Part shown: positions 1,476 through 45,248 of the stretch, piece by piece
How positions within the stretch are numbered: the stretch's first letter is position 1
Layout of the letters: each line of letters starts with the position of its first letter
IMG/VR virus record: IMGVR_UViG_3300009159_000076
Location: 1-62,214 of that record
Reading direction: 5' to 3' (one strand)
Length of the DNA: 62,214 bases
Source: a virus
Position numbers and translations under genes: made by a program
The notes under the pieces: model-generated
What the model was told of the DNA's origin: nothing
The model's input: only the letters and a program-made list of their open reading frames with translations
The model's database searches: none

Positions 1476-1476
1476 C

Positions 1477-27264: not shown

Positions 27265-27265
27265 T

Positions 27266-28474
27266 ATGGAATGGTTTATTAAGAAAAATTCAACGTTACC
27301 AGTTTTCCAAGTTGAGATATCAAAAGACGGAAGAAGTGATTTTGGTTTAGATGAAAATATTTCGGGTAATACAATTTTAATTTCGGTATATGACGAAATT
27401 AATAAGAAATATGTTGTAGCGTCTAAAGAATGTTATATTACAACAAGTGCGTCTACTGTTAATCCTTTAGATATTACTTATTATGTAAACTATCAATTCA
27501 CAAGTAGAGAAACAAAAAATGAAGGTAAGTTTTTAGTTCAGTTTTTAAAACAATCATCTCAGGGTATTGTTATTATACCATTACCTCAAAAAATTTATGT
27601 AAGTGTTCTTAGTAGTTTTAGTTTAAACTCTTACTCTTATCCAACTAATAATCCTTACATTATTGATAGACCTTGTTGTAACGCACCTGCTCTACCTGCA
27701 ACACCTACTCCGACTCCAAGTATTACTCCAAGTGTTACACCAACAATGTCTTTAACACCTACGAGAACCCCAACTCTCACCCCAACAACGACAACAACCC
27801 CAACATTTACTCCGACACCATCTATAACAAAACCTTTGTACTACGCTTATGTATTCGCAGAACCACAAGATTCTTCGGCAAGTGGTTCGTTGTATGGATT
27901 AGGAAGTTATATGTATTACTTGGCGGATGGTGTTACAGTTGATACTAATGTTAATTGGTACGGATGGGGTAATTCGGGAGCTCTTCCATTACCGACAAGT
28001 CCAAACTACAGTTATATGATGAACAAATACTCATCATACTCAGGATTTACGGGTGGAACAGGAAACTTTGTTAAACCTACAGACTTAAAAGGTGTGTTAA
28101 ACCAATTCTCAAATACTATTAACGATAGTTTCGGATGTTTAATTAACCAATACACATTTGAGACAATTGAGGTTAATAATAGTGATATTAACACTAGCTT
28201 ACAGTACATGTATACGATTTGGATACCACTTGCTGGTGTGGGGGGAAGTTTAAATAACATGACAGTAAATGTTGGTTATCAATCACAACCTTGTGACTTT
28301 GATATTTTAGCAACTCCTGACCCTAAAATTTCGGTTGGGAATATTACAATAACTTCAGGTGGAGCGATACCTGCGGGGACTTATAGAGTATTATACTTGT
28401 CTAACGATGGATTGTTACCTCCAAAACTTCCTGATAAAAATAATTATTATTTCAAAGGGGTGTATAAAACCTAA
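27266..28474 (+). CDS. Fibre protein: BppU-N-like head, Pro/Thr linker, YAY-EP C-terminal domain
   Basis: 402 residues. I chose ATG 27266, one base after the previous stop, because MEWFIKKNSTLPVFQVEISK then aligns with the start of the preceding protein (MEFFINKGATLPVLKMQVVK); an upstream TTG at 27239 would add 9 unrelated residues. Residues about 1-120 are BppU-N-like; about 143-190 is a Pro/Thr linker ([20 protein letters not shown]); about 191-402 (YYAYVFAEPQDSSASGSLYG ... YYFKGVYKT) is homologous to the C-terminal domain of the protein at 18690. It precedes the giant fibre in the same way that 18690 precedes the C1q-tipped fibre, forming the second copy of a two-gene cassette. Confidence 0.62.
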   Translation: MEWFIKKNSTLPVFQVEISKDGRSDFGLDENISGNTILISVYDEINKKYVVASKECYITTSASTVNPLDITYYVNYQFTSRETKNEGKFLVQFLKQSSQGIVIIPLPQKIYVSVLSSFSLNSYSYPTNNPYIIDRPCCNAPALPATPTPTPSITPSVTPTMSLTPTRTPTLTPTTTTTPTFTPTPSITKPLYYAYVFAEPQDSSASGSLYGLGSYMYYLADGVTVDTNVNWYGWGNSGALPLPTSPNYSYMMNKYSSYSGFTGGTGNFVKPTDLKGVLNQFSNTINDSFGCLINQYTFETIEVNNSDINTSLQYMYTIWIPLAGVGGSLNNMTVNVGYQSQPCDFDILATPDPKISVGNITITSGGAIPAGTYRVLYLSNDGLLPPKLPDKNNYYFKGVYKT

Positions 28475-28503: not shown

Positions 28504-31500
28504 ATGGCAATACCGTATCAAAATCCAATAAGTGCGTCCCAAATTACAGGACCTTTCAGTGTAGCGAGAACAAGCCCATACGGAACCAATTTTAATGTTT
28601 TAAATGTTGGTGGATGGCAAGAGGCGGCATACCTTACTAATTTAGGTTTAATATTTAGTGGGCAAGGACAACAACAATTAAGTGTTAATAATATACCTAT
28701 TAATATTAACATTGGTAACGGTACATTTTCTCCAACATATTTAACTTTAAATTCTGACAATTTCTCTTCGGGTAGAAGAAGATTGGGTATGATTGTTTGG
28801 GTTAATGAAACTGAAACAGCATATCAATATCAAATAGACAATTACAATGATTTATGGGATGCGGCGGTAAGTGCTAATTCTGTAACTCAATTATCTTACG
28901 AAACTATTGTAAAGAACAATACACCTGAAGGTCAGGCATTTATTAATGCTTGGACAGGTTCAACTATTGAAGGTGTTAGTGGCGTAACAAGAGCAAATGC
29001 TCGTTGGAGAGTTTTTGCACAAGGTACTGAATTAACGGGTGGTACTTATTTTTCAGGTACAAGTACATTAGAATTATATAATAGTGATGGAACTGTTATT
29101 TCTGTAACAGGTATTACGGCATCTGGTTCTAATGGTAGTTCTGGAACATCAGGTTCAAGTGGTTCATCAGGTAGTTCAGGTTCAAGTGGGTCTTCGGGAA
29201 CTTCAGGTAGTAATGGTTCGTCAGGTAGTAGTGGAACAAGCGGAACAAGTGGAACATCGGGTAGTACAGGAACTAGTGGTTCATCAGGAAGTGTAGGTAC
29301 AAGTGGTAGTTCGGGATTAAGTGGTGTTGACGGTACAAATGGTACTAGTGGTTCATCTGGAAGTGTAGGTACATCAGGAACTTCAGGGTCATCAGGAAGT
29401 TCAGGTACAGGTGGAACATCAGGAACTTCAGGTACATCAGGAAGTACTGGAACTTCAGGTTCAAGTGGTAGTGTTGGGACTAGTGGTACATCAGGTTCAA
29501 GTGGTTCTTCAGGAAGTGTTGGTACGTCTGGTTCATCTGGAAGTGCAGGTACATCAGGAACTTCAGGGTCATCAGGAAGTTCAGGTACAAGCGGAACATC
29601 AGGAACTGGAGGAACTTCAGGTTCAAGTGGTAGTGTTGGGACTAGTGGTACATCAGGAACAAGTGGTTCTTCAGGTACATCAGGTAGTTCAGGTTCAAGT
29701 GGTTCATCGGGAAGTTCAGGTTCAAGTGGTTCATCGGGTACATCAGGTAGTACTGGTACTAGTGGTAGTAGTGGAACAAGCGGAACGTCGGGTTCATCAG
29801 GTTCTGCGGGAAGTAGTGGTTCATCAGGTAGTGTTGGAACATCTGGTTCAAGTGGTAGTTCAGGTAGTTCTGGTTCATCAGGTACATCTGGCTCAAGTGG
29901 TAGCTCTGGTTCAACAGGTTCGTCAGGTAGTAGTGGTATAACTGGGTCTTCAGGTACGAGTGGTAGTTCTGGCACATCAGGTTCATCTGGTAGTTCAGGT
30001 TCTTCAGGTTCATCTGGTAGTTCAGGTTCTTCAGGTAGTACTGGTTCATCAGGAACTAGCGGAACATCAGGAACATCAGGTACAAGTGGTAGTTCAGGTT
30101 CTACAGGAACATCGGGTTCTACAGGAACATCGGGTTCTACAGGAACATCGGGTTCATCAGGTAGTAGTGGCTCAAGTGGAAGTTCAGGATTGACAGGTTC
30201 ATCAGGAACATCGGGTTCATCAGGGACATCGGGTTCATCAGGTAGTTCTGGTTCAAGTGGTAGTAGCGGAAGTACAGGGTCTTCGGGCACAAGTGGTAGT
30301 TCTGGTACATCAGGTTCATCAGGAAGTTCAGGTTCATCAGGTTCTAGCGGTAGTGTTGGAACTTCGGGAACAAGTGGTTCAAGTGGAAGTTCAGGTTCTT
30401 CAGGAAGTGTAGGAACATCAGGTACAAGTGGTAGTTCAGGTTCGTCTGGCTCAAGTGGAAATACAGGTTCAAGTGGAACGAGTGGTTCATCAGGTACATC
30501 TGGCTCAAGTGGTAGTTCAGGTTCGTCTGGCTCAAGTGGTTCAAGTGGAAGTTCAGGTTCTTCAGGAAGTGTAGGAACATCAGGTACAAGTGGTAGTTCA
30601 GGTTCTTCAGGTAGTTCAGGTGTTAATGGTTCTTCAGGGACTAGTGGTAGTTCGGGAACATCTGGTTCTTCAGGAAGTTCGGGTTCATCAGGTTCTAGTG
30701 GTAGTTCAGGAACATCTGGCTCAAGCGGGTCTTCTGGTTCAAGTGGAAGTACTGGTTCTTCAGGAAGTGCAGGTACATCGGGTAGTGTAGGAACTAGCGG
30801 TAGTTCTGGTTCATCTGGTTCTTCAGGTAGTACTGGCTCAAGTGGTACTTCAGGTTCATCAGGTAGTGTAGGTACTAGTGGTTCATCAGGTAGTGTAGGT
30901 ACTAGTGGTTCATCAGGTAGCACTGGTTCAAGTGGTAGTAGCGGAAGTACAGGGTCTTCTGGTACAAGTGGGAGCTCAGGAACATCTGGTACTAGCGGTA
31001 GTTCTGGGTCATCTGGTTCAGTTGGTACAAGCGGTTCATCAGGTAGTGTTGGAACATCTGGTTCATCAGGTTCTGTTGGTACTTCAGGAACATCGGGTTC
31101 ATCAGGTAGTACTGGTTCAAGTGGAAGTTCAGGAAGTAGTGGTAGTGTAGGAACAAGTGGTTCTTCAGGGACATCTGGCTCAACAGGTACTTCAGGAACA
31201 TCAGGTTCAAGTGGGTCTTCAGGTAGTTCGGGTTCATCAGGAAGTTCAGGTACAAGCGGAACATCAGGTTCAGTAGGAACAAGTGGTTCATCGGGAAGTT
31301 CAGGGTCAACAGGAACTTCAGGTTCAAGTGGGTCTTCAGGTAGTTCAGGAAGTAGCGGAACATCTGGTTCTAGTGGAAGTGTTGGAACTTCTGGCACATC
31401 AGGAACAAGTGGTTCATCGGGAAGTTCTGGTTCTGCCGGTACAAGTGGAAGTGTAGGAACAAGTGGTACTTCAGGTTCATCTGGCTCAAGTGGAAGTTCA

Positions 31501-34500
31501 GGTTCAACAGGTAGTTCAGGTACTAGCGGAACATCTGGAACAAGTGGTTCATCAGGTTCTAGCGGTAGCGCTGGAAGCTCAGGAACGTCAGGTTCTAGCG
31601 GTAGCACAGGTTCAAGTGGTTCTACTGGCACGTCAGGTTCTTCAGGAACAAGTGGTTCTGTAGGTACAAGCGGAACATCTGGTTCCTCAGGAAGTGTAGG
31701 TACTTCAGGTACTAGTGGAAGCTCAGGAAGTGTAGGAACATCTGGTTCAAGTGGTACTACTGGTACCTCAGGAACATCAGGTAGTTCAGGTTCATCTGGT
31801 AGTGTTGGTACATCAGGAACTTCGGGTACTAGCGGAACATCAGGTTCTAGCGGTTCGTCAGGAAATAGTGGAAGTTCAGGTACAAGTGGAACATCGGGTT
31901 CAACTGGGTCTTCAGGCTCAAGTGGTAGTTCGGGAAGTGTTGGTACATCAGGAAGTAGTGGTTCTTCAGGTTCTAGTGGTAGTAATGGAAGCTCAGGAAG
32001 TACAGGTACATCGGGTTCAAGTGGAACTTCAGGTTCTTCAGGTACTAGCGGAACATCGGGAACTAGTGGAAGTTCAGGAAGTGTAGGTACTTCAGGTACA
32101 TCAGGAAGTTCTGGTTCAGTAGGAACATCGGGTACTAGTGGTAGTTCTGGTTCAGTAGGAACATCGGGAACTAGTGGTAGTTCTGGTTCGTCTGGTTCAG
32201 TTGGTACTAGCGGTTCTTCAGGAAGTGTTGGAACTAGTGGAACATCAGGTAGTTCAGGTTCAAGTGGTTCTAGCGGAGTATCAGGTTCATCGGGTTCTAG
32301 TGGTATTAGTGGAAGTTCAGGTACTTCAGGTACTAGTGGAACTTCAGGTTCAAGTGGTTCTACTGGTACGTCAGGTTCTAGCGGAAGTGCTGGAAGCTCA
32401 GGAAATAGTGGGACATCAGGTTCTTCAGGTAGTGTTGGAACATCTGGTACTAGCGGTTCGTCAGGTAGTGTAGGGACTAGCGGAACATCTGGTTCAAGTG
32501 GTAGTTCAGGAAATAGTGGAACATCAGGAACTAGTGGCTCATCGGGTAGTGTAGGAACATCAGGAACAAGTGGTACGTCAGGTAGTTCTGGTTCAAGTGG
32601 TAGTTCAGGAAGTGTAGGTACTTCAGGTACTAGTGGTAGTTCAGGAAGTGTAGGAACATCTGGTTCAAGTGGCTCTACTGGTACGTCAGGTTCTAGCGGA
32701 AGTGCTGGAAGCTCAGGAAATAGTGGAACATCTGGAACAAGTGGCAGTTCAGGTTCTTCTGGTTCAAGTGGTAGTACTGGTACGTCAGGTAGTTCGGGAA
32801 GTACAGGAACATCTGGCTCTTCAGGAAGTGTTGGTACATCAGGAACTAGTGGAACTAGTGGAACTTCAGGTAGTTCTGGTTCAGTAGGAACTTCAGGTAC
32901 TAGTGGTAGCGTAGGAACATCGGGTACATCAGGTAGTTCTGGTTCATCGGGAAGCAGTGGTTCTTCAGGTTCTAGCGGTAGTGCTGGAAGTTCAGGAACT
33001 AGTGGGTCTACAGGTTCAAGTGGAAGTAGTGGTTCTTCAGGAAGTGTTGGAACAAGTGGTTCTAGCGGAAGTACTGGTACATCAGGTAGTTCAGGAAGTG
33101 TTGGTACAAGTGGTTCTTCAGGAAGTACTGGAACATCAGGAACAAGTGGTAGTTCAGGTTCTGTGGGTACATCAGGTACTAGCGGTACGAGCGGAAGTTC
33201 TGGTTCAAGTGGAACTTCTGGTTCTTCGGGAAGTACTGGTACATCTGGTTCATCGGGTAGTGTAGGTACTTCAGGAACAAGTGGTTCATCTGGAAGTACG
33301 GGTACATCAGGTAGTGCTGGTTCTTCTGGCTCAAGTGGTAGTTCAGGTTCTTCAGGAAGTTCTGGAAGCGTTGGTACATCTGGAACTAGTGGTTCTTCAG
33401 GAAGTACAGGCACAAGTGGTACATCAGGTAGTTCAGGGTCAAGTGGAACTGGAGGTTCGTCAGGTTCAAGTGGAAGCACCGGAACCTCAGGAACATCAGG
33501 AAGTGTTGGAACATCAGGAACGTCTGGTTCTTCAGGAAGTGTTGGTACGAGTGGAACATCGGGTTCATCAGGTAGTGTTGGAACATCTGGTTCTTCAGGT
33601 TCATCAGGAACAAGTGGAACATCAGGTAGTTCTGGCTCTGTAGGTACTAGTGGTACATCAGGGTCTTCAGGAAGTGTGGGAACAAGTGGGACTAGCGGTA
33701 CATCAGGAACTTCTGGTTCATCAGGAAGTGTGGGAACTAGCGGTAGTTCGGGTAGTGTAGGTACTTCAGGAACTAGCGGTACATCAGGTTCTAGTGGAAG
33801 CGTTGGTACATCAGGTACGAGCGGTTCTTCAGGAAGTTATGGTTCAAGTGGTAGTTCAGGAAGCACAGGTACAAGTGGAACATCTGGTTCTTCAGGTACG
33901 ACAGGTAGTTCGGGGAGTAGTGGTAGTTCAGGTTCTTCGGGTAGTGTTGGTACTTCAGGAAGTAGTGGTTCAAGTGGAACATCAGGGTATAGCGGAAGTA
34001 GTGGTAGTTCTGGCTCATCAGGAAGTGCTGGTACTTCAGGGGTTAACGGAAGTTCTGGAACATCAGGAAGTAGTGGTTCATCTGGGTCTTCAGGTTCTAG
34101 CGGTTCATCAGGAACGTCTGGCTCAAGCGGAAGTACTGGTTCATCTGGTTCATCTGGTTCATCTGGAAGTACGGGAACATCAGGGTCTAGCGGTTCAACA
34201 GGTACAAGTGGTACATCGGGTAGTGTAGGTACATCAGGTTCATCGGGAAGTTCTGGCTCATCAGGTTCTAGTGGAAGTGTTGGTACTTCTGGAACAAGTG
34301 GTTCTTCGGGAAGTACTGGTTCATCAGGTAGTTCAGGAACATCAGGAAGTACAGGTACATCAGGAACAAGTGGTAGTTCAGGTTCTGTGGGTACATCAGG
34401 TACCAGCGGTACGAGTGGAAGTTCTGGTTCTTCGGGAAGTAGTGGAACATCAGGAAGTTCTGGAAGCGTTGGTACATCAGGTACGAGCGGTTCTTCAGGA

Positions 34501-37500
34501 AGTTCTGGTTCATCAGGGATATCTGGTTCAAGTGGTAGTTCAGGAAGCACAGGTACAAGTGGAACATCAGGTTCTTCAGGTAGTGTAGGAACTTCTGGTT
34601 CTTCAGGTAGTTCTGGTTCAGTAGGAACTTCAGGTACTAGTGGTACATCAGGAACATCGGGTTCATCGGGTAGCTCTGGCTCAACAGGCTCGTCAGGTAG
34701 TAGTGGAACTTCTGGTTCATCAGGTTCAAGTGGTAGTGCTGGCTCATCTGGTAGTTCTGGAAGTACAGGAACATCAGGCACTAGCGGTAGTACTGGTTCA
34801 AGTGGTAGTAGTGGTACATCAGGAAGTTCAGGTTCTTCGGGTTCTGTAGGTACATCAGGGACTGCGGGTACATCAGGAAGTACAGGTTCTAGTGGTAGTA
34901 GTGGTTCATCAGGTAGTGTGGGTACTTCAGGAACTAGTGGTTCGTCAGGTTCTAGCGGAAGCGCTGGAAGCTCAGGGACATCAGGTTCTTCAGGTACAAG
35001 TGGTACTTCGGGTTCTAGTGGTAGTACTGGAAGTTCAGGAACATCTGGCTCGTCAGGAAGTGTTGGTACATCAGGTTCTTCAGGAAGTACTGGAACTAGT
35101 GGCTCAAGTGGTAGTTCAGGAACCTCAGGTTCTTCTGGCTCAACAGGTTCAAGTGGTTCTTCAGGAAGTGCTGGTTCTAGTGGTAGTACAGGTTCATCAG
35201 GAACATCAGGGTCAAGTGGTTCGGTAGGTACTTCGGGGACTAGTGGAAGTTCAGGTAGTGTAGGAACATCTGGTTCAAGTGGGTCTTCAGGCTCTAGCGG
35301 AAGTGTTGGAACATCAGGTTCTAGCGGTTCTTCAGGAAGTTCTGGGTCATCAGGGTCTAGTGGAAGTGTTGGTACATCAGGTTCTTCGGGAAGTACTGGT
35401 ACGTCAGGTTCAAGTGGTTCTACAGGAAGCTCTGGCTCAAGTGGTTCTACAGGAACTAGTGGAACTTCAGGTTCTTCAGGTAGTACAGGAACATCTGGTA
35501 CGTCAGGTTCAAGCGGTAGTGTAGGTACATCAGGAACTAGTGGTAGTTCTGGTTCAGTTGGTACAAGTGGTACATCTGGCTCAAGTGGTAGTGTTGGTAC
35601 ATCTGGAACTTCGGGGTCATCTGGAAGTGTTGGTACAAGCGGTTCTTCAGGAACTAGTGGGTCAAGTGGAAGTAGTGGTTCATCAGGTTCTACAGGAACT
35701 TCTGGTTCATCAGGAACAAGTGGTTCTTCAGGTAGTACAGGAACATCAGGTAGTGCTGGTTCTTCTGGCTCAAGTGGTAGTTCAGGTTCAAGTGGAAGTA
35801 CTGGAACATCAGGTTCCTCAGGTTCAAGTGGTAGTACAGGTTCTTCAGGAAGTTCTGGAACGAGTGGTAGTTCAGGAACTAGTGGGTCTTCTGGTAATTC
35901 TGGTTCTTCAGGAACTAGCGGAACATCTGGAACAAGTGGTTCATCAGGTTCTAGCGGTAGCGCTGGAAGCTCAGGAACGTCAGGTTCTGTAGGTACGAGC
36001 GGAACATCAGGTTCTAGCGGTAGTACTGGTTCAAGTGGTTCGTCAGGTACTAGCGGAACTTCAGGTTCAAGTGGTTCATCTGGAAGTTCAGGGTCATCAG
36101 GAACATCTGGTTCTTCAGGTAGTACAGGTTCAAGTGGAACTAGTGGTTCTTCAGGAACATCTGGTACTAGCGGTAGTTCAGGAAGTTCTGGTTCATCGGG
36201 TAGTACAGGTACTTCAGGAAGCTCAGGCTCAAGCGGAACAAGTGGTTCTTCAGGGTCTAGCGGTTCATCGGGTTCTAGTGGAAGTTCAGGGTCATCTGGT
36301 AGTACAGGTTCAAGAGGGACTAGCGGAACATCTGGAACAAGTGGTAGTTCAGGAACATCTGGTTCAAACGGTACATCAGGAAGTTCTGGTTCATCGGGTA
36401 GTAGTGGGAGTTCAGGTTCTGGTGGTACTTCAGGTTCATCAGGATTAAGTGGGGTTGATGGTACAAACGGTACTAGTGGTAGTTCAGGGACTAGTGGAAC
36501 ATCTGGTTCAAGTGGTTCAAGTGGTTCTTCAGGGTCTAGTGGTAGTGTAGGAACAAGCGGAACTTCTGGTTCTTCAGGAAGTAGTGGAAGTGCTGGGTCA
36601 TCTGGTTCAAGTGGTTCGTCGGGTACATCAGGTGCTAATGGAAGCTCTGGTAGTTCAGGTTCAAGTGGTAGTTCAGGGACAAGTGGTTCGTCAGGTTCTA
36701 GCGGAAGTGCTGGAAGCTCAGGAAGTTCTGGTTCTGTTGGGACATCAGGTTCGTCAGGTACTTCAGGTTCAAGCGGTTCTTCAGGTAGTAGTGGCTCAAG
36801 TGGTAGTTCAGGAAGTTCTGGTTCTGCGGGTACTTCAGGTTCAAGTGGAAGTGCTGGAACTAGTGGTTCATCTGGTAGTTCAGGGTCTGCTGGTAGTTCA
36901 GGGTCAAGTGGAGTAACTGGTTCTTCAGGTACTAGCGGGTCTTCAGGAAGTTCTGGTAGTTCAGGTTCTAGTGGAAGTGTTGGAACTAGCGGTTCATCAG
37001 GTACAAGTGGTTCATCCGGCTCAAGTGGAAGTTCTGGTTCATCAGGAAGTTCTGGTTCAACAGGTTCATCAGGAAGTTCTGGTTCAACAGGTTCATCAGG
37101 AACAAGTGGTACGTCAGGTAGTAGCGGTTCTAGTGGTAGTACAGGGACTAGTGGTTCGTCAGGAAGTTCTGGCTCAGCTGGTACAAGCGGAAGTTCAGGT
37201 TCTACAGGTAGTAGTGGGTCTAGCGGAAGTGCGGGTTCTTCAGGAAGTGTAGGGACTAGTGGAACATCTGGTTCTAGTGGTAGTTCTGGTTCTAGTGGAA
37301 GTACGGGTAGTTCAGGTACTAGCGGTAGTAGTGGTTCATCAGGAAGTTCTGGTTCCACAGGTTCTTCGGGAAGTAGTGGAACATCAGGTTCTGTAGGTTC
37401 ATCAGGTACTAGTGGTTCTTCAGGTTCTAGTGGAAGTGCTGGAAGTTCAGGTTCAACTGGTACATCTGGTTCTTCAGGTTCAGTAGGAACAAGTGGAACT

Positions 37501-40500
37501 TCTGGTTCAAGTGGTAGTTCAGGTTCTTCAGGTTCAGTAGGAACAAGTGGAACTTCTGGTTCAAGTGGTAGTTCAGGTTCTTCTGGAACTAGTGGAAGTG
37601 TTGGTACAAGTGGTTCATCTGGAACATCAGGTTCTAGTGGTAGTTCAGGAAGTTCTGGTTCATCAGGAAGTTCGGGTTCCACAGGTTCTTCGGGAACATC
37701 AGGAAGTACTGGAAGTTCAGGGTCTAGTGGAAGTACTGGTAGTTCAGGGACTAGTGGTTCGTCAGGGTCTAGCGGAAGTTCAGGTACATCAGGTACTTCT
37801 GGTTCAAGTGGGTCTTCAGGTTCTAGTGGAAGTGTTGGAACATCAGGTACGAGCGGTTCGTCAGGTTCTAGTGGTAGCACTGGAAGCTCAGGAAGTGCGG
37901 GTACATCAGGTAGTTCAGGTTCTGTAGGTACAAGTGGTAGTTCTGGAAGCTCAGGAAGTTCTGGTTCATCAGGTTCTGCGGGAAGTGCTGGTACATCAGG
38001 AACATCAGGTTCATCGGGAAGTAGTGGTAGTTCAGGGTCATCTGGTTCAGCAGGTACATCAGGTGCTAATGGAAGTTCTGGTACTTCAGGAACATCTGGT
38101 TCTTCAGGTTCAAGTGGAAGTAGTGGTTCATCAGGAAGTGTGGGTACATCTGGTTCATCTGGTACATCTGGTACATCAGGAACATCTGGTTCAAGTGGCT
38201 CAGCAGGTTCTAGCGGAAGTGCTGGAAGCTCAGGAAGTAGCGGTTCATCTGGTACATCAGGAGCTAATGGAAGTAGTGGAACATCTGGTTCTTCAGGTTC
38301 AAGTGGAAGTAGTGGTAGTTCAGGTTCAGCTGGTTCTTCAGGAACATCAGGTTCTAGCGGAAGCTCAGGAAGTACTGGTTCATCTGGTTCTTCTGGTACT
38401 TCAGGAAGTAGTGGAAGTTCTGGAACATCAGGTTCAAGCGGTTCATCAGGTAGTTCAGGAAGTGTTGGAACAAGTGGAAGTTCTGGAACTTCAGGTTCAA
38501 GTGGTTCGTCAGGTTCTAGTGGTAGTGCTGGAAGCTCTGGTACGTCAGGTACTAGTGGTTCATCAGGAACTTCAGGTTCAAGTGGTTCGTCAGGTTCTAG
38601 TGGTAGTACTGGAAGCTCAGGAAGTACTGGTACAAGTGGAAGTTCTGGTTCATCAGGTAGTTCAGGAAGTGTTGGTACAAGTGGAAGTTCAGGTTCTGCC
38701 GGAACGTCTGGTTCATCAGGAAGTTCGGGTTCAAGCGGTAGTAGTGGAAGTTCAGGTTCTACTGGTTCAAGAGGAACATCAGGAACATCAGGTAGTAGTG
38801 GTACAAGTGGAACATCAGGTACTTCTGGTTCATCAGGTTCTAGCGGAAGTGCTGGTTCATCAGGTACATCGGGAGCTAACGGAAGTTCAGGTACAAGTGG
38901 TACTTCAGGAAGTAGTGGAAGTTCAGGGTCTAGCGGTAGTGCTGGAAGTTCAGGTTCTACTGGTACAAGTGGCTCTTCAGGAAGTTCTGGTACAAGTGGC
39001 TCTTCAGGAAGTTCTGGTTCATCGGGTAGTAGTGGAAGTGCGGGGTCATCTGGTTCATCAGGTACATCAGGTGCTAATGGAAGTTATGGTACTTCAGGTA
39101 CTAGTGGAAGTTCAGGGTCTAGCGGTAGTGCTGGAAGTTCTGGTTCTGTAGGTACAAGTGGCTCATCAGGTTCTAGCGGAAGCGCTGGAAGTTCAGGAAG
39201 TACTGGCTCAAGTGGTAGTTCTGGTTCGTCAGGAACAAGTGGTGCTAATGGTAGTTCAGGAACGTCTGGTTCAAGTGGCTCATCTGGTTCTTCAGGAAGT
39301 AGTGGTAGTTCTGGTTCTGTTGGAACATCAGGTTCTAGCGGTTCATCAGGAAGTTCTGGTTCTTCAGGAAGTACAGGTTCAAGTGGAACATCAGGTACTT
39401 CTGGTTCGTCAGGTTCTAGCGGTTCATCAGGAAGTAGTGGTAGTGCAGGTTCTTCAGGAACATCAGGGGCTAACGGTTCTTCAGGTACAAGTGGTTCGTC
39501 AGGTTCTAGCGGTAGTACTGGAAGCTCAGGAAGTAGTGGTACATCGGGTGCTAATGGAAGCAGCGGAACATCAGGAAGTTCAGGGTCTAGTGGTTCTTCA
39601 GGAACTGCTGGCTCAAGTGGATTATCAGGAAACGACTCTTCTAACTCAGGTAGATGGAGATATAATGGAACAGGTACTACACCTGCAGCAACATTCTTTC
39701 AGACAGATAGTACAACAATATCTTCAATTACTAATGTCTATATAAACATTGATGATATAAATTCCACATCTTATGCTTCGTGGTTTTCTGGAATAGATAC
39801 CATACAGGCTCTTGGTAATACTGTTTATTTACAAATCACACAAGTAGGTTCTAACAATATTATTGGTATATGGGATGTTGCAGGAATTACAGTAACCGGT
39901 AGTGTTTATAGATGGATATTCAAAGGTAATATTGTTGCAAATGGAACTTTATCCAGTACAGAATATACAATATCATGGGTATTTAATGGTCTTAATGGTT
40001 CATCTGGTACGAGCGGAAGTTCTGGAACATCAGGTTCAAGCGGAAGTTCGGGCAGTTCAGGTTCGTCAGGTAATACTGGAAGTTCAGGAACATCAGGTTC
40101 ATCAGGAACTAGCGGTTCATCAGGTAGTGCTGGCTCAAGTGGAAGTTCAGGTAATACAGGTTCTTCGGGTACAAGTGGTAGTTCAGGGTCTTCAGGTAGT
40201 GTAGGTACATCTGGAACGAGTGGAACATCGGGTACTAGTGGAAGTTCAGGTTCATCAGGAAGTGCTGGTACGAGTGGAAGTTCAGGAACATCGGGTTCAA
40301 GTGGTAGTTCAGGTTCGTCAGGTAATACTGGAAGTTCAGGTTCTTCAGGAACATCAGGGTCCAGTGGTAGTTCAGGAAGTACAGGTTCTTCAGGTTCAAG
40401 TGGAACATCAGGAAGTTCAGGGTCTAGTGGTTCTTCAGGTTCTAGTGGTAGTGCTGGAAGTTCTGGTACATCAGGTGCTAATGGTAGTTCAGGAACATCT

Positions 40501-42804
40501 GGCTCAAGCGGTTCATCTGGCTCAAGTGGAAGTAGTGGTAGTTCTGGTTCAGTTGGAACATCAGGTTCTAGTGGAAGTAGTGGTAGTTCAGGGTCTTCAG
40601 GAAGTACTGGTTCAAGAGGAACAAGCGGTTCTTCAGGAACATCGGGAAGCTCAGGTTCAAGTGGTTCATCAGGTACTTCAGGTTCTAACGGAAGTTCAGG
40701 AACATCAGGAAGTGCTGGTTCAAGTGGTAGTTCAGGTTCATCAGGTTCAAGTGGAACATCAGGTTCTAATGGTAGCTCTGGTACATCAGGTAGTTCTGGT
40801 TCAAGTGGTAGTAGTGGTTCTAGCGGTAGTGCTGGTACTTCAGGTTCAGTAGGGACAAGTGGCTCTTCAGGAAGTGCGGGTAGTTCAGGGTCAAGTGGAA
40901 ATACAGGCTCTTCGGGTACTAGCGGTTCATCAGGAACATCAGGTTCTTCTGGCTCAAGTGGCTCGTCAGGGTCTGGTGGAAGCTCAGGTACATCGGGTAG
41001 TAGTGGAACATCAGGGTCTTCAGGCTCAAGTGGAAGTTCAGGTAGTACAGGTTCATCGGGTTCATCTGGTATTACAGGTTCTTCAGGAACTAGTGGTAGT
41101 TCAGGTACATCAGGAAGTTCGGGTTCATCAGGTAGTAGTGGAAGCACTGGCTCAAGTGGTACTGGAGGTTCTTCAGGAACATCAGGTTCTTCTGGTTCAA
41201 GTGGAAGCTCAGGTTCTTCGGGTAATAGCGGTTCATCGGGAACTTCTGGGTCAAGTGGAACATCAGGTTCTTCTGGCTCTTCAGGTAGTTCTGGGTCTAG
41301 CGGAAGTGCTGGCTCAAGTGGTAGTTCAGGTTCATCGGGTATTACTGGAAGTAGTGGAACAAGTGGTTCTTCTGGCTCAAGCGGAAGTTCAGGAACATCG
41401 GGTTCTTCGGGTACTTCAGGGTCAAGTGGTTCTTCAGGAAGTAGCGGAAGTTCGGGTAATACAGGTTCTTCTGGAACTAGCGGTTCATCAGGTAGTGCTG
41501 GTTCAAGCGGAAGTTCGGGTAATACAGGTTCTTCTGGAACTAGCGGTTCATCAGGTAGTGCTGGTTCAAGCGGAAGTTCGGGTAATACAGGTTCTTCGGG
41601 TACAAGTGGTAGTTCTGGAACATCGGGGTCAACAGGTTCTTCAGGAAGTTCTGGGATTACTGGTTCCTCAGGTACTTCTGGTTCAGGTTCTGCTGGTTCA
41701 TCAGGTTCTAGCGGAAGTGGGTCATCAGGAACAAGTGGATTAGATGGTATAAGTGGAACATCTGGCTCAAGTGGTATTACTGGTTCATCAGGTACTTCAG
41801 GTTCTGGCTCATCAGGAAGTTCAGGGTCTAGTGGAAGTACGGGTTCGTCAGGAACATCAGGTTCGTCAGGAACATCAGGAAGTTCAGGTTCTAGTGGTAG
41901 TTCTGGTTCAAGTGGGAGTACTGGTTCAAGAGGAACTTCTGGAAGTCAAGGTAACAAAGGAGGTCTTCAGTATATCTATGGTAATGGAGCCGGTACAGCA
42001 CCTTCTTCAGGTCAATTTAGTTATAATGGTGCAGGTTCTTCAGTTTATGATTTGAAATTTAATGTAACAACCGCGGATTCTGCAAATATTAGTGATTATT
42101 TTTTCAATTTAGTTGGAAAAAGTGGGATTGTATATTTGATTTTCAATTTAAATGGTTCAAACAAAATTGATATTTATAGCTTTAATAACGTTTCGGTAAG
42201 TGGTAGTGATTATCTTTTTACAGGAGCTTTAGATACAAATGCTGGAGATACAACACTTACAACTAGTGATTTATGTGCAATTACCATAATTGTTAATGGA
42301 GCATCAGGTGCTAATGGTAGTTCAGGAACTTCAGGTTCAAGTGGTAGTAGTGGAAGTACTGGTTCAAGAGGAACATCGGGTTCTTCAGGTTCAAGCGGAA
42401 GTTCTGGTTCATCAGGGACTAGCGGTTCATCAGGAACTTCAGGTTCTAGTGGAAGTTCAGGTTCTAGTGGAAGTTCTGGTTCAAGTGGTTCTTCAGGAAC
42501 TTCAGGTTCAAGTGGAAGTACAGGTTCAAGAGGAACATCTGGAAGCTCAGGAACTAGTGGTACTTCAGGTTCATCGGGTTCTTCGGGTACTTCAGGTTCA
42601 AATGGTTCATCTGGTACAAGTGGTAGTTCAGGTTCATCGGGTAGTTCAGGTTCATCAGGGACTAGCGGTTCATCAGGAAGTTCTGGAATTACTGGCTCTT
42701 CAGGAACATCAGGTTCAGGTTCATCAGGAACTAGTGGAGCTGCGGGCGGAACATTCACATTAGGAATTGTTTACACAACCGCAAACAATTTTAACTTTAT
42801 ATAA
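28504..42804 (+). CDS. Giant Gly-X-Y (Ser/Thr) repeat tail fibre
   Basis: 4,766 residues. Residues 1-207 are a head domain paralogous to the C1q-tipped fibre at 19704 (MAIPYQNPISASQITGPFSV, FSSGRRRLGMIVWVNETETA). Residues 208-3709, 3829-4486 and 4599-4749 are Gly-X-Y triplets in which X and Y are nearly always Ser or Thr with occasional Val, Ala, Asn and rare Arg. Two globular islands (3710-3828 and 4487-4598) interrupt them and are paralogous to each other. The chain ends with a 17-residue tail (TFTLGIVYTTANNFNFI). Gly-X-Y stretches occur in many phage fibres, where they form collagen-like trimeric rods, but here Pro is absent. The frame is intact over 14.3 kb. Codons for the same triplet vary, so selection is at protein level. 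The glycosyltransferases upstream could act on the Ser/Thr surface (inference). Confidence 0.85.
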   Translation: MAIPYQNPISASQITGPFSVARTSPYGTNFNVLNVGGWQEAAYLTNLGLIFSGQGQQQLSVNNIPININIGNGTFSPTYLTLNSDNFSSGRRRLGMIVWVNETETAYQYQIDNYNDLWDAAVSANSVTQLSYETIVKNNTPEGQAFINAWTGSTIEGVSGVTRANARWRVFAQGTELTGGTYFSGTSTLELYNSDGTVISVTGITASGSNGSSGTSGSSGSSGSSGSSGSSGTSGSNGSSGSSGTSGTSGTSGSTGTSGSSGSVGTSGSSGLSGVDGTNGTSGSSGSVGTSGTSGSSGSSGTGGTSGTSGTSGSTGTSGSSGSVGTSGTSGSSGSSGSVGTSGSSGSAGTSGTSGSSGSSGTSGTSGTGGTSGSSGSVGTSGTSGTSGSSGTSGSSGSSGSSGSSGSSGSSGTSGSTGTSGSSGTSGTSGSSGSAGSSGSSGSVGTSGSSGSSGSSGSSGTSGSSGSSGSTGSSGSSGITGSSGTSGSSGTSGSSGSSGSSGSSGSSGSSGSTGSSGTSGTSGTSGTSGSSGSTGTSGSTGTSGSTGTSGSSGSSGSSGSSGLTGSSGTSGSSGTSGSSGSSGSSGSSGSTGSSGTSGSSGTSGSSGSSGSSGSSGSVGTSGTSGSSGSSGSSGSVGTSGTSGSSGSSGSSGNTGSSGTSGSSGTSGSSGSSGSSGSSGSSGSSGSSGSVGTSGTSGSSGSSGSSGVNGSSGTSGSSGTSGSSGSSGSSGSSGSSGTSGSSGSSGSSGSTGSSGSAGTSGSVGTSGSSGSSGSSGSTGSSGTSGSSGSVGTSGSSGSVGTSGSSGSTGSSGSSGSTGSSGTSGSSGTSGTSGSSGSSGSVGTSGSSGSVGTSGSSGSVGTSGTSGSSGSTGSSGSSGSSGSVGTSGSSGTSGSTGTSGTSGSSGSSGSSGSSGSSGTSGTSGSVGTSGSSGSSGSTGTSGSSGSSGSSGSSGTSGSSGSVGTSGTSGTSGSSGSSGSAGTSGSVGTSGTSGSSGSSGSSGSTGSSGTSGTSGTSGSSGSSGSAGSSGTSGSSGSTGSSGSTGTSGSSGTSGSVGTSGTSGSSGSVGTSGTSGSSGSVGTSGSSGTTGTSGTSGSSGSSGSVGTSGTSGTSGTSGSSGSSGNSGSSGTSGTSGSTGSSGSSGSSGSVGTSGSSGSSGSSGSNGSSGSTGTSGSSGTSGSSGTSGTSGTSGSSGSVGTSGTSGSSGSVGTSGTSGSSGSVGTSGTSGSSGSSGSVGTSGSSGSVGTSGTSGSSGSSGSSGVSGSSGSSGISGSSGTSGTSGTSGSSGSTGTSGSSGSAGSSGNSGTSGSSGSVGTSGTSGSSGSVGTSGTSGSSGSSGNSGTSGTSGSSGSVGTSGTSGTSGSSGSSGSSGSVGTSGTSGSSGSVGTSGSSGSTGTSGSSGSAGSSGNSGTSGTSGSSGSSGSSGSTGTSGSSGSTGTSGSSGSVGTSGTSGTSGTSGSSGSVGTSGTSGSVGTSGTSGSSGSSGSSGSSGSSGSAGSSGTSGSTGSSGSSGSSGSVGTSGSSGSTGTSGSSGSVGTSGSSGSTGTSGTSGSSGSVGTSGTSGTSGSSGSSGTSGSSGSTGTSGSSGSVGTSGTSGSSGSTGTSGSAGSSGSSGSSGSSGSSGSVGTSGTSGSSGSTGTSGTSGSSGSSGTGGSSGSSGSTGTSGTSGSVGTSGTSGSSGSVGTSGTSGSSGSVGTSGSSGSSGTSGTSGSSGSVGTSGTSGSSGSVGTSGTSGTSGTSGSSGSVGTSGSSGSVGTSGTSGTSGSSGSVGTSGTSGSSGSYGSSGSSGSTGTSGTSGSSGTTGSSGSSGSSGSSGSVGTSGSSGSSGTSGYSGSSGSSGSSGSAGTSGVNGSSGTSGSSGSSGSSGSSGSSGTSGSSGSTGSSGSSGSSGSTGTSGSSGSTGTSGTSGSVGTSGSSGSSGSSGSSGSVGTSGTSGSSGSTGSSGSSGTSGSTGTSGTSGSSGSVGTSGTSGTSGSSGSSGSSGTSGSSGSVGTSGTSGSSGSSGSSGISGSSGSSGSTGTSGTSGSSGSVGTSGSSGSSGSVGTSGTSGTSGTSGSSGSSGSTGSSGSSGTSGSSGSSGSAGSSGSSGSTGTSGTSGSTGSSGSSGTSGSSGSSGSVGTSGTAGTSGSTGSSGSSGSSGSVGTSGTSGSSGSSGSAGSSGTSGSSGTSGTSGSSGSTGSSGTSGSSGSVGTSGSSGSTGTSGSSGSSGTSGSSGSTGSSGSSGSAGSSGSTGSSGTSGSSGSVGTSGTSGSSGSVGTSGSSGSSGSSGSVGTSGSSGSSGSSGSSGSSGSVGTSGSSGSTGTSGSSGSTGSSGSSGSTGTSGTSGSSGSTGTSGTSGSSGSVGTSGTSGSSGSVGTSGTSGSSGSVGTSGTSGSSGSVGTSGSSGTSGSSGSSGSSGSTGTSGSSGTSGSSGSTGTSGSAGSSGSSGSSGSSGSTGTSGSSGSSGSTGSSGSSGTSGSSGTSGSSGNSGSSGTSGTSGTSGSSGSSGSAGSSGTSGSVGTSGTSGSSGSTGSSGSSGTSGTSGSSGSSGSSGSSGTSGSSGSTGSSGTSGSSGTSGTSGSSGSSGSSGSTGTSGSSGSSGTSGSSGSSGSSGSSGSSGSSGSTGSRGTSGTSGTSGSSGTSGSNGTSGSSGSSGSSGSSGSGGTSGSSGLSGVDGTNGTSGSSGTSGTSGSSGSSGSSGSSGSVGTSGTSGSSGSSGSAGSSGSSGSSGTSGANGSSGSSGSSGSSGTSGSSGSSGSAGSSGSSGSVGTSGSSGTSGSSGSSGSSGSSGSSGSSGSAGTSGSSGSAGTSGSSGSSGSAGSSGSSGVTGSSGTSGSSGSSGSSGSSGSVGTSGSSGTSGSSGSSGSSGSSGSSGSTGSSGSSGSTGSSGTSGTSGSSGSSGSTGTSGSSGSSGSAGTSGSSGSTGSSGSSGSAGSSGSVGTSGTSGSSGSSGSSGSTGSSGTSGSSGSSGSSGSTGSSGSSGTSGSVGSSGTSGSSGSSGSAGSSGSTGTSGSSGSVGTSGTSGSSGSSGSSGSVGTSGTSGSSGSSGSSGTSGSVGTSGSSGTSGSSGSSGSSGSSGSSGSTGSSGTSGSTGSSGSSGSTGSSGTSGSSGSSGSSGTSGTSGSSGSSGSSGSVGTSGTSGSSGSSGSTGSSGSAGTSGSSGSVGTSGSSGSSGSSGSSGSAGSAGTSGTSGSSGSSGSSGSSGSAGTSGANGSSGTSGTSGSSGSSGSSGSSGSVGTSGSSGTSGTSGTSGSSGSAGSSGSAGSSGSSGSSGTSGANGSSGTSGSSGSSGSSGSSGSAGSSGTSGSSGSSGSTGSSGSSGTSGSSGSSGTSGSSGSSGSSGSVGTSGSSGTSGSSGSSGSSGSAGSSGTSGTSGSSGTSGSSGSSGSSGSTGSSGSTGTSGSSGSSGSSGSVGTSGSSGSAGTSGSSGSSGSSGSSGSSGSTGSRGTSGTSGSSGTSGTSGTSGSSGSSGSAGSSGTSGANGSSGTSGTSGSSGSSGSSGSAGSSGSTGTSGSSGSSGTSGSSGSSGSSGSSGSAGSSGSSGTSGANGSYGTSGTSGSSGSSGSAGSSGSVGTSGSSGSSGSAGSSGSTGSSGSSGSSGTSGANGSSGTSGSSGSSGSSGSSGSSGSVGTSGSSGSSGSSGSSGSTGSSGTSGTSGSSGSSGSSGSSGSAGSSGTSGANGSSGTSGSSGSSGSTGSSGSSGTSGANGSSGTSGSSGSSGSSGTAGSSGLSGNDSSNSGRWRYNGTGTTPAATFFQTDSTTISSITNVYINIDDINSTSYASWFSGIDTIQALGNTVYLQITQVGSNNIIGIWDVAGITVTGSVYRWIFKGNIVANGTLSSTEYTISWVFNGLNGSSGTSGSSGTSGSSGSSGSSGSSGNTGSSGTSGSSGTSGSSGSAGSSGSSGNTGSSGTSGSSGSSGSVGTSGTSGTSGTSGSSGSSGSAGTSGSSGTSGSSGSSGSSGNTGSSGSSGTSGSSGSSGSTGSSGSSGTSGSSGSSGSSGSSGSAGSSGTSGANGSSGTSGSSGSSGSSGSSGSSGSVGTSGSSGSSGSSGSSGSTGSRGTSGSSGTSGSSGSSGSSGTSGSNGSSGTSGSAGSSGSSGSSGSSGTSGSNGSSGTSGSSGSSGSSGSSGSAGTSGSVGTSGSSGSAGSSGSSGNTGSSGTSGSSGTSGSSGSSGSSGSGGSSGTSGSSGTSGSSGSSGSSGSTGSSGSSGITGSSGTSGSSGTSGSSGSSGSSGSTGSSGTGGSSGTSGSSGSSGSSGSSGNSGSSGTSGSSGTSGSSGSSGSSGSSGSAGSSGSSGSSGITGSSGTSGSSGSSGSSGTSGSSGTSGSSGSSGSSGSSGNTGSSGTSGSSGSAGSSGSSGNTGSSGTSGSSGSAGSSGSSGNTGSSGTSGSSGTSGSTGSSGSSGITGSSGTSGSGSAGSSGSSGSGSSGTSGLDGISGTSGSSGITGSSGTSGSGSSGSSGSSGSTGSSGTSGSSGTSGSSGSSGSSGSSGSTGSRGTSGSQGNKGGLQYIYGNGAGTAPSSGQFSYNGAGSSVYDLKFNVTTADSANISDYFFNLVGKSGIVYLIFNLNGSNKIDIYSFNNVSVSGSDYLFTGALDTNAGDTTLTTSDLCAITIIVNGASGANGSSGTSGSSGSSGSTGSRGTSGSSGSSGSSGSSGTSGSSGTSGSSGSSGSSGSSGSSGSSGTSGSSGSTGSRGTSGSSGTSGTSGSSGSSGTSGSNGSSGTSGSSGSSGSSGSSGTSGSSGSSGITGSSGTSGSGSSGTSGAAGGTFTLGIVYTTANNFNFI
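30097..30150 (+). repeat. Three tandem 18-bp units in the fibre gene
   Basis: GGTTCTACAGGAACATCG is repeated three times without change (30097-30114, 30115-30132, 30133-30150). Synonymous identity shows a recent slippage-type expansion. Confidence 0.9.
31522..31596 (+). repeat. 75-bp exact dispersed repeat, copy 1
   Basis: Identical base for base to 35914-35988, 4.4 kb downstream, while the flanking codons differ. Indicates recombination or segmental duplication inside the fibre gene. Confidence 0.85.
35914..35988 (+). repeat. 75-bp exact dispersed repeat, copy 2
   Basis: Exact copy of 31522-31596; begins ACTAGCGGAACATCTGG and ends GGAACGTCAGGTTCT in both places. Confidence 0.85.
37468..37575 (+). 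repeat. Two tandem exact 54-bp units in the fibre gene
   Basis: 37468-37521 and 37522-37575 are identical, encoding 18 residues each (GSSGSVGTSGTSGSSGSS). A recent in-frame tandem duplication. Confidence 0.9.
39631..39987 (+). other. Globular island domain 1 of the giant fibre
   Basis: 119 residues (3710-3828) of ordinary composition (GRWRYNGTGTTPAATFFQ, VYINIDDINSTSYASWFSGI, VYLQITQVGSNNIIGIWDVA, YTISWVFNG). A beta-rich domain paralogous to island 2; both end in a VNG/FNG-type turn that leads back into Gly-X-Y repeats. Likely a trimerisation or bending module within the rod. Confidence 0.7.
39988..41961 (+). repeat. Gly-X-Y coding repeat, block 2
   Basis: About 219 triplets between the two islands. 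Richer in GNT, GIT, GSG and GSR triplets than block 1, and carries three Gly-Ser-Gly interruptions (a missing Y residue) at 41680, 41713 and 41800. Confidence 0.93.
41455..41580 (+). repeat. Two tandem exact 63-bp units in the fibre gene
   Basis: 41455-41517 and 41518-41580 are identical (21 codons each, starting GGTAATACAGGTTCTTCTGG), and a third partial copy begins at 41581. A recent in-frame duplication. Confidence 0.92.
41962..42297 (+). other. Globular island domain 2 of the giant fibre
   Basis: 112 residues (4487-4598): GLQYIYGNGAGTAPSSGQFS, VYDLKFNVTTADSANISDYF, VYLIFNLNGSNKIDIYSFNN, SGSDYLFTGALDTNAGDTTL. It aligns with island 1 over its full length (aromatic start, VYL-strand, SGSxY turn, final VNG), so the islands are duplicates. 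Confidence 0.7.
42298..42750 (+). repeat. Gly-X-Y coding repeat, block 3
   Basis: About 50 triplets after island 2, with two GSRG sites (near 42366 and 42530) and one Gly-Ser-Gly interruption at 42712, followed by the 17-residue C-terminal tail. Confidence 0.92.
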
Positions 42805-42840: not shown

Positions 42841-43260
42841 ATGCCAGCGAATACAGCTCCAATCTTTACACTATTACCTGAGATTATGTGGGATAATACT
42901 ATCACAACTGCTAATAATACTGGTGATTTAACTTCAGGTACAGTTTATCCTGTATTTACCGCAGGTACCAATGGTAGTTATGTGCAAAAAATAAGATTTA
43001 GACATACAGGTGCCAATTCGGCGGCAACTGTTGCTCGTGTTTGGATTAATAATGGTTCTGCGACTACTAGTGCAATTAATAACACTTTATTTGATGAAAT
43101 AACAATTGCTGCAAACGCCACATTTACAACGAATGCCGCCTCAACCAACTATGAATTACCACTTATGTTTGGTTTACCTCCTAATTATAGACTTTATGTA
43201 ACAATCGGTGCGGCTGCTGCAGGTGGTATTGATGCAACGGTTATAGGAGGAGACTACTAA
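42841..43260 (+). CDS. Small virion protein, beta-sandwich type
   Basis: 139 residues: MPANTAPIFTLLPEIMWDNT, VYPVFTAGTNGSYVQKIRFR, ARVWINNGSATTSAINNTLF, PLMFGLPPNYRLYVTIGAAA. I recognise this as a type common next to tail-fibre genes in many phages, apparently a single jelly-roll or Ig-like domain; its role is not established. No signal peptide or membrane segment. Coupled to the next gene by TAATG. Confidence 0.6.
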   Translation: MPANTAPIFTLLPEIMWDNTITTANNTGDLTSGTVYPVFTAGTNGSYVQKIRFRHTGANSAATVARVWINNGSATTSAINNTLFDEITIAANATFTTNAASTNYELPLMFGLPPNYRLYVTIGAAAAGGIDATVIGGDY

Positions 43261-43451: not shown

Positions 43452-44348
43452 ATGATTGACTATTACAATTTAGCTGACAATCAATATAAAAATCAAGTAT
43501 ATACCGGGTCTATAGGTACTAATACTACTTTCATGGTTTATTATTGGATTAAACCAAGAGGTGTTACTATGGTACATATTACTGCTATTGGTGCTGGAGG
43601 TGGTGGAGGTGGTGGTAATTCTTCTGCGAGTACTGCGGCTTCAGGTGGTTCTGGTGGTGGTTCAGGAGCTATTACAAGATTAACAATCCCCGCTATTTTT
43701 TTACCCGACCAACTTAGAATAATTGTTGCCGCTGGTGGTTCTGGAGGAACTACAGGTGGAGGTAATACTGCAGCTAATACTTTTGTTGAAGTTGCTAGAG
43801 GTTCTGCGGTTGCGGCTACCTATGTGTTACAAGCTAACGGTGGTGGTGGAGGTAACGTAGGTGCTGCGGGAGCAGCTTCTGCGGGTGGTGGAGCCGGAGC
43901 TATAGGTGTTCAAACTAATGCAGTATATCAGGCTTTAGGTACGTTTTCAGTTATTGCAGGTCAAGCGGGTGCTGCAGGTGCAAATGGTGCCGTAGGGGGT
44001 ACAATAACAATTAACGGTAATGCTACAACAGTATCAGGAGGTGCCGCTGGAGGTGGGAAAAGTGCAGCTAATACCTCATTTGGTGGTGGTAATATCAATC
44101 CTATTGGGCAAATACCTACAGGTAATGGAGGAAGCGCGGGTGGAACTAATAATGGTGATACAGGAACTTATACGTTTAATGGATTTTATAGTGCAGGAGG
44201 TGCTGGTGGAGGTGCTTTTGCAACAGGTACTGCGGGCAGAGGAGGTGATGGTGGACCTGGCAGCGGTGGAGGTGGTGGTGGTTCAGGAGTAACTGGAGGT
44301 AATGGAGGTAATGGTGGACCCGGTATGGTAATAATAACATGTTGGTAA
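43452..44348 (+). CDS. Glycine-rich tail/adhesin protein, copy 1
   Basis: 298 residues, first of three tandem paralogues. N-terminal 35 residues (MIDYYNLADNQYKNQVYTGS, YYWIKPRGVTMVHITAIGAG) are followed by poly-Gly stretches alternating with short hydrophobic strands (ITRLTIPAIFLPDQLRIIVA). The C-terminal third has FYSAGGAGGGA, GRGGDGGPGSGGGGGGSGVT and the end GGPGMVIITCW. Glycine-rich domains like this occur in phage fibre tips, where Gly-rich strands can form polyglycine-II-type bundles. All three copies end in CW. Probably a receptor-binding or fibre-tip component. Confidence 0.65.
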   Translation: MIDYYNLADNQYKNQVYTGSIGTNTTFMVYYWIKPRGVTMVHITAIGAGGGGGGGNSSASTAASGGSGGGSGAITRLTIPAIFLPDQLRIIVAAGGSGGTTGGGNTAANTFVEVARGSAVAATYVLQANGGGGGNVGAAGAASAGGGAGAIGVQTNAVYQALGTFSVIAGQAGAAGANGAVGGTITINGNATTVSGGAAGGGKSAANTSFGGGNINPIGQIPTGNGGSAGGTNNGDTGTYTFNGFYSAGGAGGGAFATGTAGRGGDGGPGSGGGGGGSGVTGGNGGNGGPGMVIITCW

Positions 44349-44360
44349 TAAGTATAAAAT

Positions 44361-45239: not shown

Positions 45240-45248
45240 TATAATAAT

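Follow-up and report, generated by a model that had tools for sequence, protein, structure and literature searches.

A 4,766-residue, proline-free Gly-X-Y fibre gene in an uncultured T4-type phage

The DNA analysed here (the window) is the whole 62,214-base virus record IMGVR_UViG_3300009159_000076. As an earlier sequence-only reading had claimed, one frame stays open for 14.3 kb on the plus strand (28504-42804), from an ATG start through 4,766 codons to a single stop at its end, and encodes a giant Gly-Ser/Thr fibre protein. The protein begins with a conserved head domain (residues 1-207, 28504-29124; 19 invariant columns in alignment A1), which is followed by Gly-X-Y block 1 of 1,168 triplets (29125-39636), a predicted folded beta domain termed island 1 (39646-39984), block 2 (39988-41967), a second non-repeat domain termed island 2 (41968-42297), block 3 of 47 triplets (42298-42720) and a short C-terminal tail beyond the last strict run (42721-42804). 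Of the three blocks first described, block 3 is slightly shorter, and block 2 contains two small register breaks near its end, which divide it into strict runs of 189, 10 and 17 triplets (39988-41688, 41719-41808 and 41815-41967). Strict Gly-X-Y triplets make up 4,293 of the 4,766 residues (1,431 triplets, 90.1%), in agreement with the previous estimate of about 90% and a little below the previous count of about 4,311 residues.

The array contains no proline, and charged residues occupy 11 of its 2,862 X/Y positions (0.4%). Position X is filled by Ser (66.6%) and Thr (29.9%), position Y by Ser (79.9%), Thr (7.3%), Val (6.1%) and Ala (3.4%), with 2,630 Ser/Thr residues overall. All four Gly codons are used while Gly is kept at every third residue. 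When the residues of the fibre were shuffled (n=200), the longest run with Gly at every third position was 12 triplets, which excludes a chance origin of the Gly-X-Y runs. Four array pieces matched the Collagen domain PF01391 with 80.3 to 287.8 bits, all above the cut-off of 27.2 (E 5e-86 and 1.4e-87 for two 600-aa pieces of block 1, 5e-82 for 39988-41688 and 8.5e-23 for block 3). Large antisense frames also occur within the fibre region; we think that they are a product of the repetitive codons and do not count as evidence of genes.

Two baseplate wedge genes (1017-3312, plus strand; phrog_261 E 8.4e-19 and phrog_219 E 3.9e-18) lie upstream of the fibre gene on the same strand, and the T4-type (Gp23-type) major capsid protein PF07068 is encoded on contig G001, which carries the same fibre gene (E 5.9e-65), and on contig G007 (E 2.1e-64). 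The fibre is thus encoded among the tail genes of a tailed phage, namely an uncultured T4-type phage. Together with the tail fibre and tail annotations among relatives of island 1 (see below), this bears out its initial description as a phage structural fibre. The baseplate protein at 1477-3312 matched, at about 26%, six records of named phages (Flavobacterium phage vB_FspM_immuto in four cases, an uncultured phage in one and a Microcystis phage in one), and SprB repeats, which we take to be typical of Bacteroidota, were identified at 16503-18665 (E 7e-11). The vB_FspM_immuto matches and the SprB repeats make a Bacteroidota host plausible. Proteins with SprB repeats are found among the structural genes at 16503-18665 and at 46456-48540, the latter below the Pfam cut-off. 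The window further encodes a concanavalin/laminin-G-like structural protein (20714-21760, plus strand; PF13385 E 7.5e-9) and, amid plus-strand genes but itself on the minus strand, a Lactonase/YNCE-like beta-propeller protein of 816 aa (51465-53915). On G001, ARAGORN predicted a tmRNA (L408:10464-10856) and a tRNA-Arg (L408:7205-7279).

A profile scan of viral contigs with the head domain revealed 391 stretches encoding a relative, and the best 80 of these 391 were combined with a first scan into a set of 84 loci. In 76 of the 84 the head continues into a Gly-Ser/Thr array. The other eight, six of which (L354-L359) represent one near-identical fibre, encode a head without an array, so the array does not appear to be essential to the fibre. 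Since many entries are near-duplicates, independent cases are fewer than these counts. The impression of a lone oddity beyond ordinary fibres did not survive this comparison, and the window fibre is instead a long member of a length-variable family. Closed array-bearing relatives comprise 2,796, 2,733, 2,435, 2,429, 1,998, 1,792 and 1,290 aa, among others, and the frame of L022 was still open at 3,337 aa. The window fibre is the longest seen in the head family, in a sample censored by contig ends: at 59 of the 84 loci the contig breaks off within the array. Database entries for the host-recognition fibres of this phage group are therefore often truncated, so that fibre length and tip identity, and hence host range, are missed.

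A pattern scan for arrays gave at least 120 matches in viral contigs; of the 120 listed, 116 were real, the largest being 785 triplets long and lying in a frame truncated on both sides. Bacterial genomes gave at least 119 matches; among the matches listed, 89 were real arrays, with 707, 366 and 292 triplets in the top three and at most 106 in the rest. Locus L262, filed under a Rhodobacteraceae MAG, encodes an array protein whose start closely resembles those of viral contigs L220 and L229, and is probably a phage contig binned by mistake. Contig G036 (294,914 bp) carries the array motif at each end in the same orientation, which would be expected of a circular map opened at the array. The window head had no tblastn match in 50,697 phage records, and head and islands had no Pfam match at E up to 0.05. 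A structure model of the head (pLDDT 65.5) matched no PDB structure at E <= 0.001, and its one match in BFVD at this threshold is an uncharacterised uncultured-phage protein with 47% identity, a sequence relative. PDB sequence searches with the head profile, the island, and the second-fibre cap and one glycine-rich protein described below returned nothing useful.

Directly upstream of the fibre gene lies a partner gene (27239-28474, plus strand) encoding an N-terminal domain, a Thr/Pro-rich linker and a conserved C-terminal domain, which we propose to be an adaptor. In 80 of the 84 loci, tblastn placed a partner relative just before the head gene, ending at most 108 nt away (median 33). The Thr/Pro-rich linker was present in 23 of 26 extracted partner relatives, for each of which 150 residues were examined; those of L025 and L402 showed none within this length. 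In a set of 21 loci, every adjacent upstream gene encoded a stretch of 40 residues of which at least 30 were Thr, Pro or Ser, and 19 of these genes encoded the opening motif of the partner's C-terminal domain. The N-termini of the partners differ among relatives, and the window partner had no tblastn match in 50,697 phage records. A paralogue of its N-terminal domain is encoded at 26896-27264 (plus strand; blastp 30%, E 2e-12).

The pair of partner and fibre occurs twice in the window. A second partner gene (18690-19694, plus strand; profile E 1.2e-42 among window frames), again with a Thr/Pro-rich linker and the same C-terminal domain, precedes a second, short fibre (19704-20693, plus strand) that has the same head (42%, E 4e-40), no array and a C-terminal globular cap. 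We infer that the C-terminal domain of the partner holds the fibre head. In a tblastn search of 50,697 phage records the second fibre matched 11, and the 10 of 11 listed matched in the cap only. The cap gave a weak BclA_C match below the Pfam curated cut-off. BclA of Bacillus spores is a collagen-like glycoprotein with a Gly-X-Thr-rich shaft of proline-containing GPT repeats and a globular cap; it is not a phage protein, and the giant fibre has no such match.

Island 1 belongs to a family that interrupts arrays. Among 7,460 non-array pieces searched, we found 25 distinct sequences of this family in 22 loci (including the window copy and a cut copy on G001), and all lie beside Gly-X-Y runs, 17 with runs on both sides and 8 on one side, in loci partly chosen for their arrays. 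AlphaFold2 modelled the window copy from 20 sequences at a pLDDT of 96.9. The model had no PDB match at E <= 0.001, and its best VIA-align Z of 5.8 may mean a common arrangement only. Within the loci collected for comparison, island 2 was otherwise found only in relatives with 98-100% identical heads. Window island 1 had no tblastn match in 50,697 phage records, and its relative from L111 matched 13 of them. These include the putative tail fiber of Pelagibacter phage HTVC010P, a spring-water record (tail fibre or tail protein), a collagen repeat protein of Actinomycetia phage DSL-LC01, a hypothetical protein of a Caulobacter phage, two uncultured-phage records and, weakly (E 3e-4 to 5e-4), minor tail and 'baseplate wedge tail fiber connector' proteins of Synechococcus phages. 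In the tail fibre of HTVC010P (AGE60292.1) and the 'collagen triple helix repeat protein' of DSL-LC01 (WJZ48563.1), both much smaller than the window fibre, the island relative adjoins Gly-X-Y repeats, which are very short in the former. In the latter it sits between long proline-containing GPT repeats, so that ordinary collagen repeats there take the place that Pro-free arrays have here. Because a folded domain recurs between triplet blocks with or without proline, the island is best read as a clamp that would nucleate or re-register the chains. It offers an easy experimental entry, given its high-confidence prediction and its kin in named phages.

Comparison of the window with L003 (98% head identity) revealed 132 synonymous and 3 non-synonymous changes in Gly codons vs 220 and 166 in X/Y codons. 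Internal gaps in 19 pairs were multiples of 9 nt in 55 of 56 cases, the exception being a single-nucleotide gap in L010, close to the end of that contig. Of 455 gaps in eight further comparisons, 383 had lengths divisible by 9, another 48 by 3 alone and the remaining 24 by neither number. These comparisons show the Gly phase to be conserved in the array, with the qualification that gap and codon counts on repeats lean to the Gly phase because the aligner anchors on Gly. The use of all four Gly codons within a single gene that keeps the spacing points the same way. Statistics on the X/Y register depend on how arrays are clustered. Clustering by shared 25-mers (22 clusters) had Thr favouring X in 19 of 21 clusters with enough Thr, and clustering by homology of the non-array parts (14 clusters, one with 167 of 180 arrays and certainly over-merged) in 12 of 13. 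Thr in X and Ser in Y are the only clear biases under both clusterings; Asp and Asn lean to Y in 6/6 and 8/9 clusters by 25-mers and in 3/3 and 4/4 by homology, which are few clusters. As other arrays share the bias, Thr in X is a rule of this repeat type.

The array resembles collagen in its Gly at every third residue, with a longest run of 1,168 triplets, but not in the residues that stabilise collagen. Table 4 of PMC3368898 lists six collagen groups, all of them with Pro in X (22.1-48.1%), charged residues at both positions and Thr higher in Y than in X, and bacterial collagens are described in PMC8968730 with Pro most frequent in X and Thr in Y. The window array offers neither Pro nor, with 11 of 2,862 X/Y residues, much charge, and its Thr is placed in X (29.9% vs 7.3% in Y). 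For these reasons a classical triple helix is uncertain, and the earlier assumption of one seems doubtful on composition. The length of about 1 micrometre calculated from it for block 1 is arithmetically correct (3,504 residues x 0.29 nm = 1,016 nm) but would require a fully extended triple helix. The shaft might be a weak triple helix with clamps, it might be stabilised by an unseen modification, or it might adopt another fold.

Among known systems, the collagen-like EPclA/EPclB side-tail fibres of E. coli prophages likewise combine an N-terminal attachment domain, a PF01391-type Gly-X-Y shaft and a variable C-terminal domain, and a dumbbell-shaped trimer is reported for a collagen fibre protein of an E. 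coli prophage (PMC3368898). The longest Col domain of EPclA/EPclB is given in the same source as 322 aa, with 48% Pro in X, abundant charge and Thr in Y, whereas the window fibre has 4,293 triplet residues with Thr mainly in X and, in place of the PfN and PfC domains, head and island families of its own. The long tail fibre of Salmonella phage S16 also belongs to a T4-type phage and has glycine-rich extended helices and a separate glycine-rich tip, but the distal part of its gp37 is a trimeric beta-helix and the glycine helices of its gp38 are short and sandwich-packed (PMC6851490). A search of the open-licence literature for the letters GTSGSSG, GSSGTSG and GTSGTSG found no phage-fibre paper, as judged by title and start of abstract. 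Among phage collagen-like fibres, the window fibre is an extreme variant with an unusual composition.

Downstream of the fibre gene, on the plus strand, follow a small protein that may be a tip or decoration (42841-43260; phrog_20100, of unknown function, E 1e-4) and three tandem glycine-rich proteins of 292-298 aa (43452-46127; PF21722 E 1.6e-5 to 1.2e-10; phrog_863/phrog_754) with similar starts and 'CW' C-terminal ends. In a comparison with S16-type adhesins, the three glycine-rich proteins match PF21722, and the one of them that was tried had no PDB sequence match. The glycine-rich proteins are 66-76% identical where the heads are 98% identical, and thus diverge faster than the head, and the C-terminal ends of the fibre differ between phages with 93% identical heads. 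Structural neighbours, variable C-terminal ends and diverging glycine-rich proteins give the region the look of a host-recognition cluster, in which the glycine-rich proteins are candidate distal or host-range adhesins.

We favour, with a probability of roughly 0.6, the reading that the protein is a fibre in the virion of a T4-type phage, most likely a tail fibre of unusual length, built as a trimeric Gly-X-Y rod that is clamped by islands, docked on the partner and used to capture distant receptors. The head domain would dock on the partner encoded just upstream, and the partner's Thr/Pro-rich stalk and variable N-terminus would tie the fibre to the tail. Three chains would run in register as an extended rod, in which the islands would serve as folded clamps, either keeping the chains in register or restoring it, and the variable C-terminal end together with the downstream glycine-rich proteins would make the tip. 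Such a rod could widen the capture radius to at most about 1 micrometre and find receptors through capsule, slime or distance. Long-reach receptor capture is the most likely function. The uses suggested earlier, a tether through slime, adhesion to mucus or a net, are conjectural, and reaching a host receptor past surface polymers is, we think, the simplest. Several points speak against this reading. With zero proline, 0.4% charge and Thr in an unusual position, the array lacks what is said to stabilise the collagens of phages and bacteria; the head model is poor and its one significant match is itself uncharacterised; the trimer is putative, and the BclA_C match of the second fibre's cap is weak and below the cut-off; and the window island and head have no match in named phages. 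The giant fibre is known here from metagenome contigs alone.

A more far-reaching version, which we put forward tentatively, is that a group of uncultured T4-type phages uses proline- and charge-free Gly-(Ser/Thr)-Ser rods with an inverted Thr register, as island-clamped trimers on a Thr/Pro-rich adaptor, for micrometre-scale, length-tunable receptor tethers, which would be a fibrous material distinct from classical collagen and one that assemblies tend to hide. If the rod is stable, it shows that proline, hydroxyproline and salt bridges are all dispensable for a collagen-like helix of great length, which would be useful for materials and for the understanding of the triple helix. If it is not, phages have another route to very long tethers.

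The strict Gly phase and the lack of Pro would also suit polyglycine-II packing, in which parallel left-handed helices pack laterally as in S16 gp38 and still form a rod or ribbon. The S16 gp38 tip uses such glycine-rich PGII helices, and the downstream Gly_rich_2 proteins of the window are glycine-rich as well. However, the S16 sandwich is described as short helices joined by loops (PMC6851490), whereas the 1,168-triplet run has no turn-like break. Ser/Thr at both X and Y would in addition have to be packed, and we regard this fold as unlikely.

Between the two fibre modules, on the plus strand, lie a gene for a GlcNAc-transferase family protein (21847-23091; PF11397 E 1.1e-68, 232.7 bits, cut-off 21), presumably of the CAZy GT60 type, and two genes with weaker glycosyltransferase signals (24636-26866; GT2 below cut-off; HtrL_YibB, of unknown function, E 8.7e-13), the second of which matched phrog_842 glucosyltransferase (E 1e-4). 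The fibre might accordingly be a mucin-like tether, a single flexible or stiffened chain whose Ser/Thr are O-glycosylated by these genes into a hydrated brush. The position of the genes and an array rich in Ser/Thr and missing the collagen stabilisers would agree with this. GT60 includes the polypeptide alpha-GlcNAc-transferase of Trypanosoma cruzi, which is implicated in starting mucin-type O-glycosylation (PMC6939170). PF11397 was detected on all 5 head-family contigs that were tested first and on 9 of another 22. Yet a relative of the window GT60 gene lies within flanks of about 10 kb of only 13 of the 84 head loci, and 12 of the best 80 of 486 GT60 loci have a same-strand array within 10 kb (L094 has one on the opposite strand). 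Of 17 long GT60 contigs without a nearby array, seven carry the array motif elsewhere. Capsid-gene contigs of at least 35 kb (17 of 80) encode PF11397 in six cases, the head domain in two and a collagen array in one, and contigs with array-less fibres (G024, G025) carry PF11397 too. These counts cover the PF11397/GT60 type and are lower bounds for co-occurrence with arrays, since the contigs are incomplete and arrays are where they tend to break. Glycosyltransferases beside the fibres of pelagimyophages are read in PMC7029224 as host-surface alteration, and a mucin has no need of a strict Gly at every third residue. Genomic linkage thus hints weakly at fibre glycosylation by the neighbouring GT60-type gene; as an explanation of the Ser/Thr wealth it was set aside for this weak linkage and kept as an improbable rival to the clamped Gly-X-Y rod.

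The length of the fibre gene was compared with two further IMG/VR contigs, G001 (240,759 bp) and G002 (57,449 bp), in both of which the gene is likewise 14,301 bp long and differs by substitutions only, 3 in G001 and 4 in G002, the three contigs possibly coming from related samples. G001 and the window differ at 12 positions over the full length of the window. One array only occurs in the scanned 240,000 bases of G001, inside by far the longest frame. The longest exact direct repeat in the array is 92 bp and no 99-mer is repeated. Exact repeats of 21-63 bases are commoner than in codon shuffles, with varied codons, which would fit old internal duplication as a route of growth. The motif GATC is absent from the fibre gene, whereas synonymous shuffles of it (n=200) contain 196 on average and never fewer than 167. 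Assemblers do fail in arrays, as seen from the 59 of 84 contigs ending there, and the 1-nt frameshift of L010 lies close to a contig end, but it is very improbable that assembly or sequencing errors lengthened the array of the window, and this explanation was rejected, given equal gene lengths in three contigs separated by few substitutions, no repeated 99-mer, a frame open throughout and a fibre gene as free of GATC as the 240 kb of G001. The length is hence taken as real, as initially claimed.

GATC is likewise missing from the whole window (expected 173) and from the 240 kb of G001 (L406-L417; expected 706). Among loci with an expectation of at least 8, GATC-free ones numbered 77/84 in the head family, 72/80 with GT60 genes, 41/56 with capsid genes and 22/107 with other arrays, in groups that share some contigs, and 1/6 in named-phage stretches (Xanthomonas phage XacN1) and 0/116 in bacterial ones. 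This looks like restriction avoidance across the phage group. Within the array (29125-42720) GGA never stands before a TCN serine codon (0 of 458 GGA codons preceding Ser or Thr), and the codon choice of the array therefore appears to be shaped by the avoidance of GATC.
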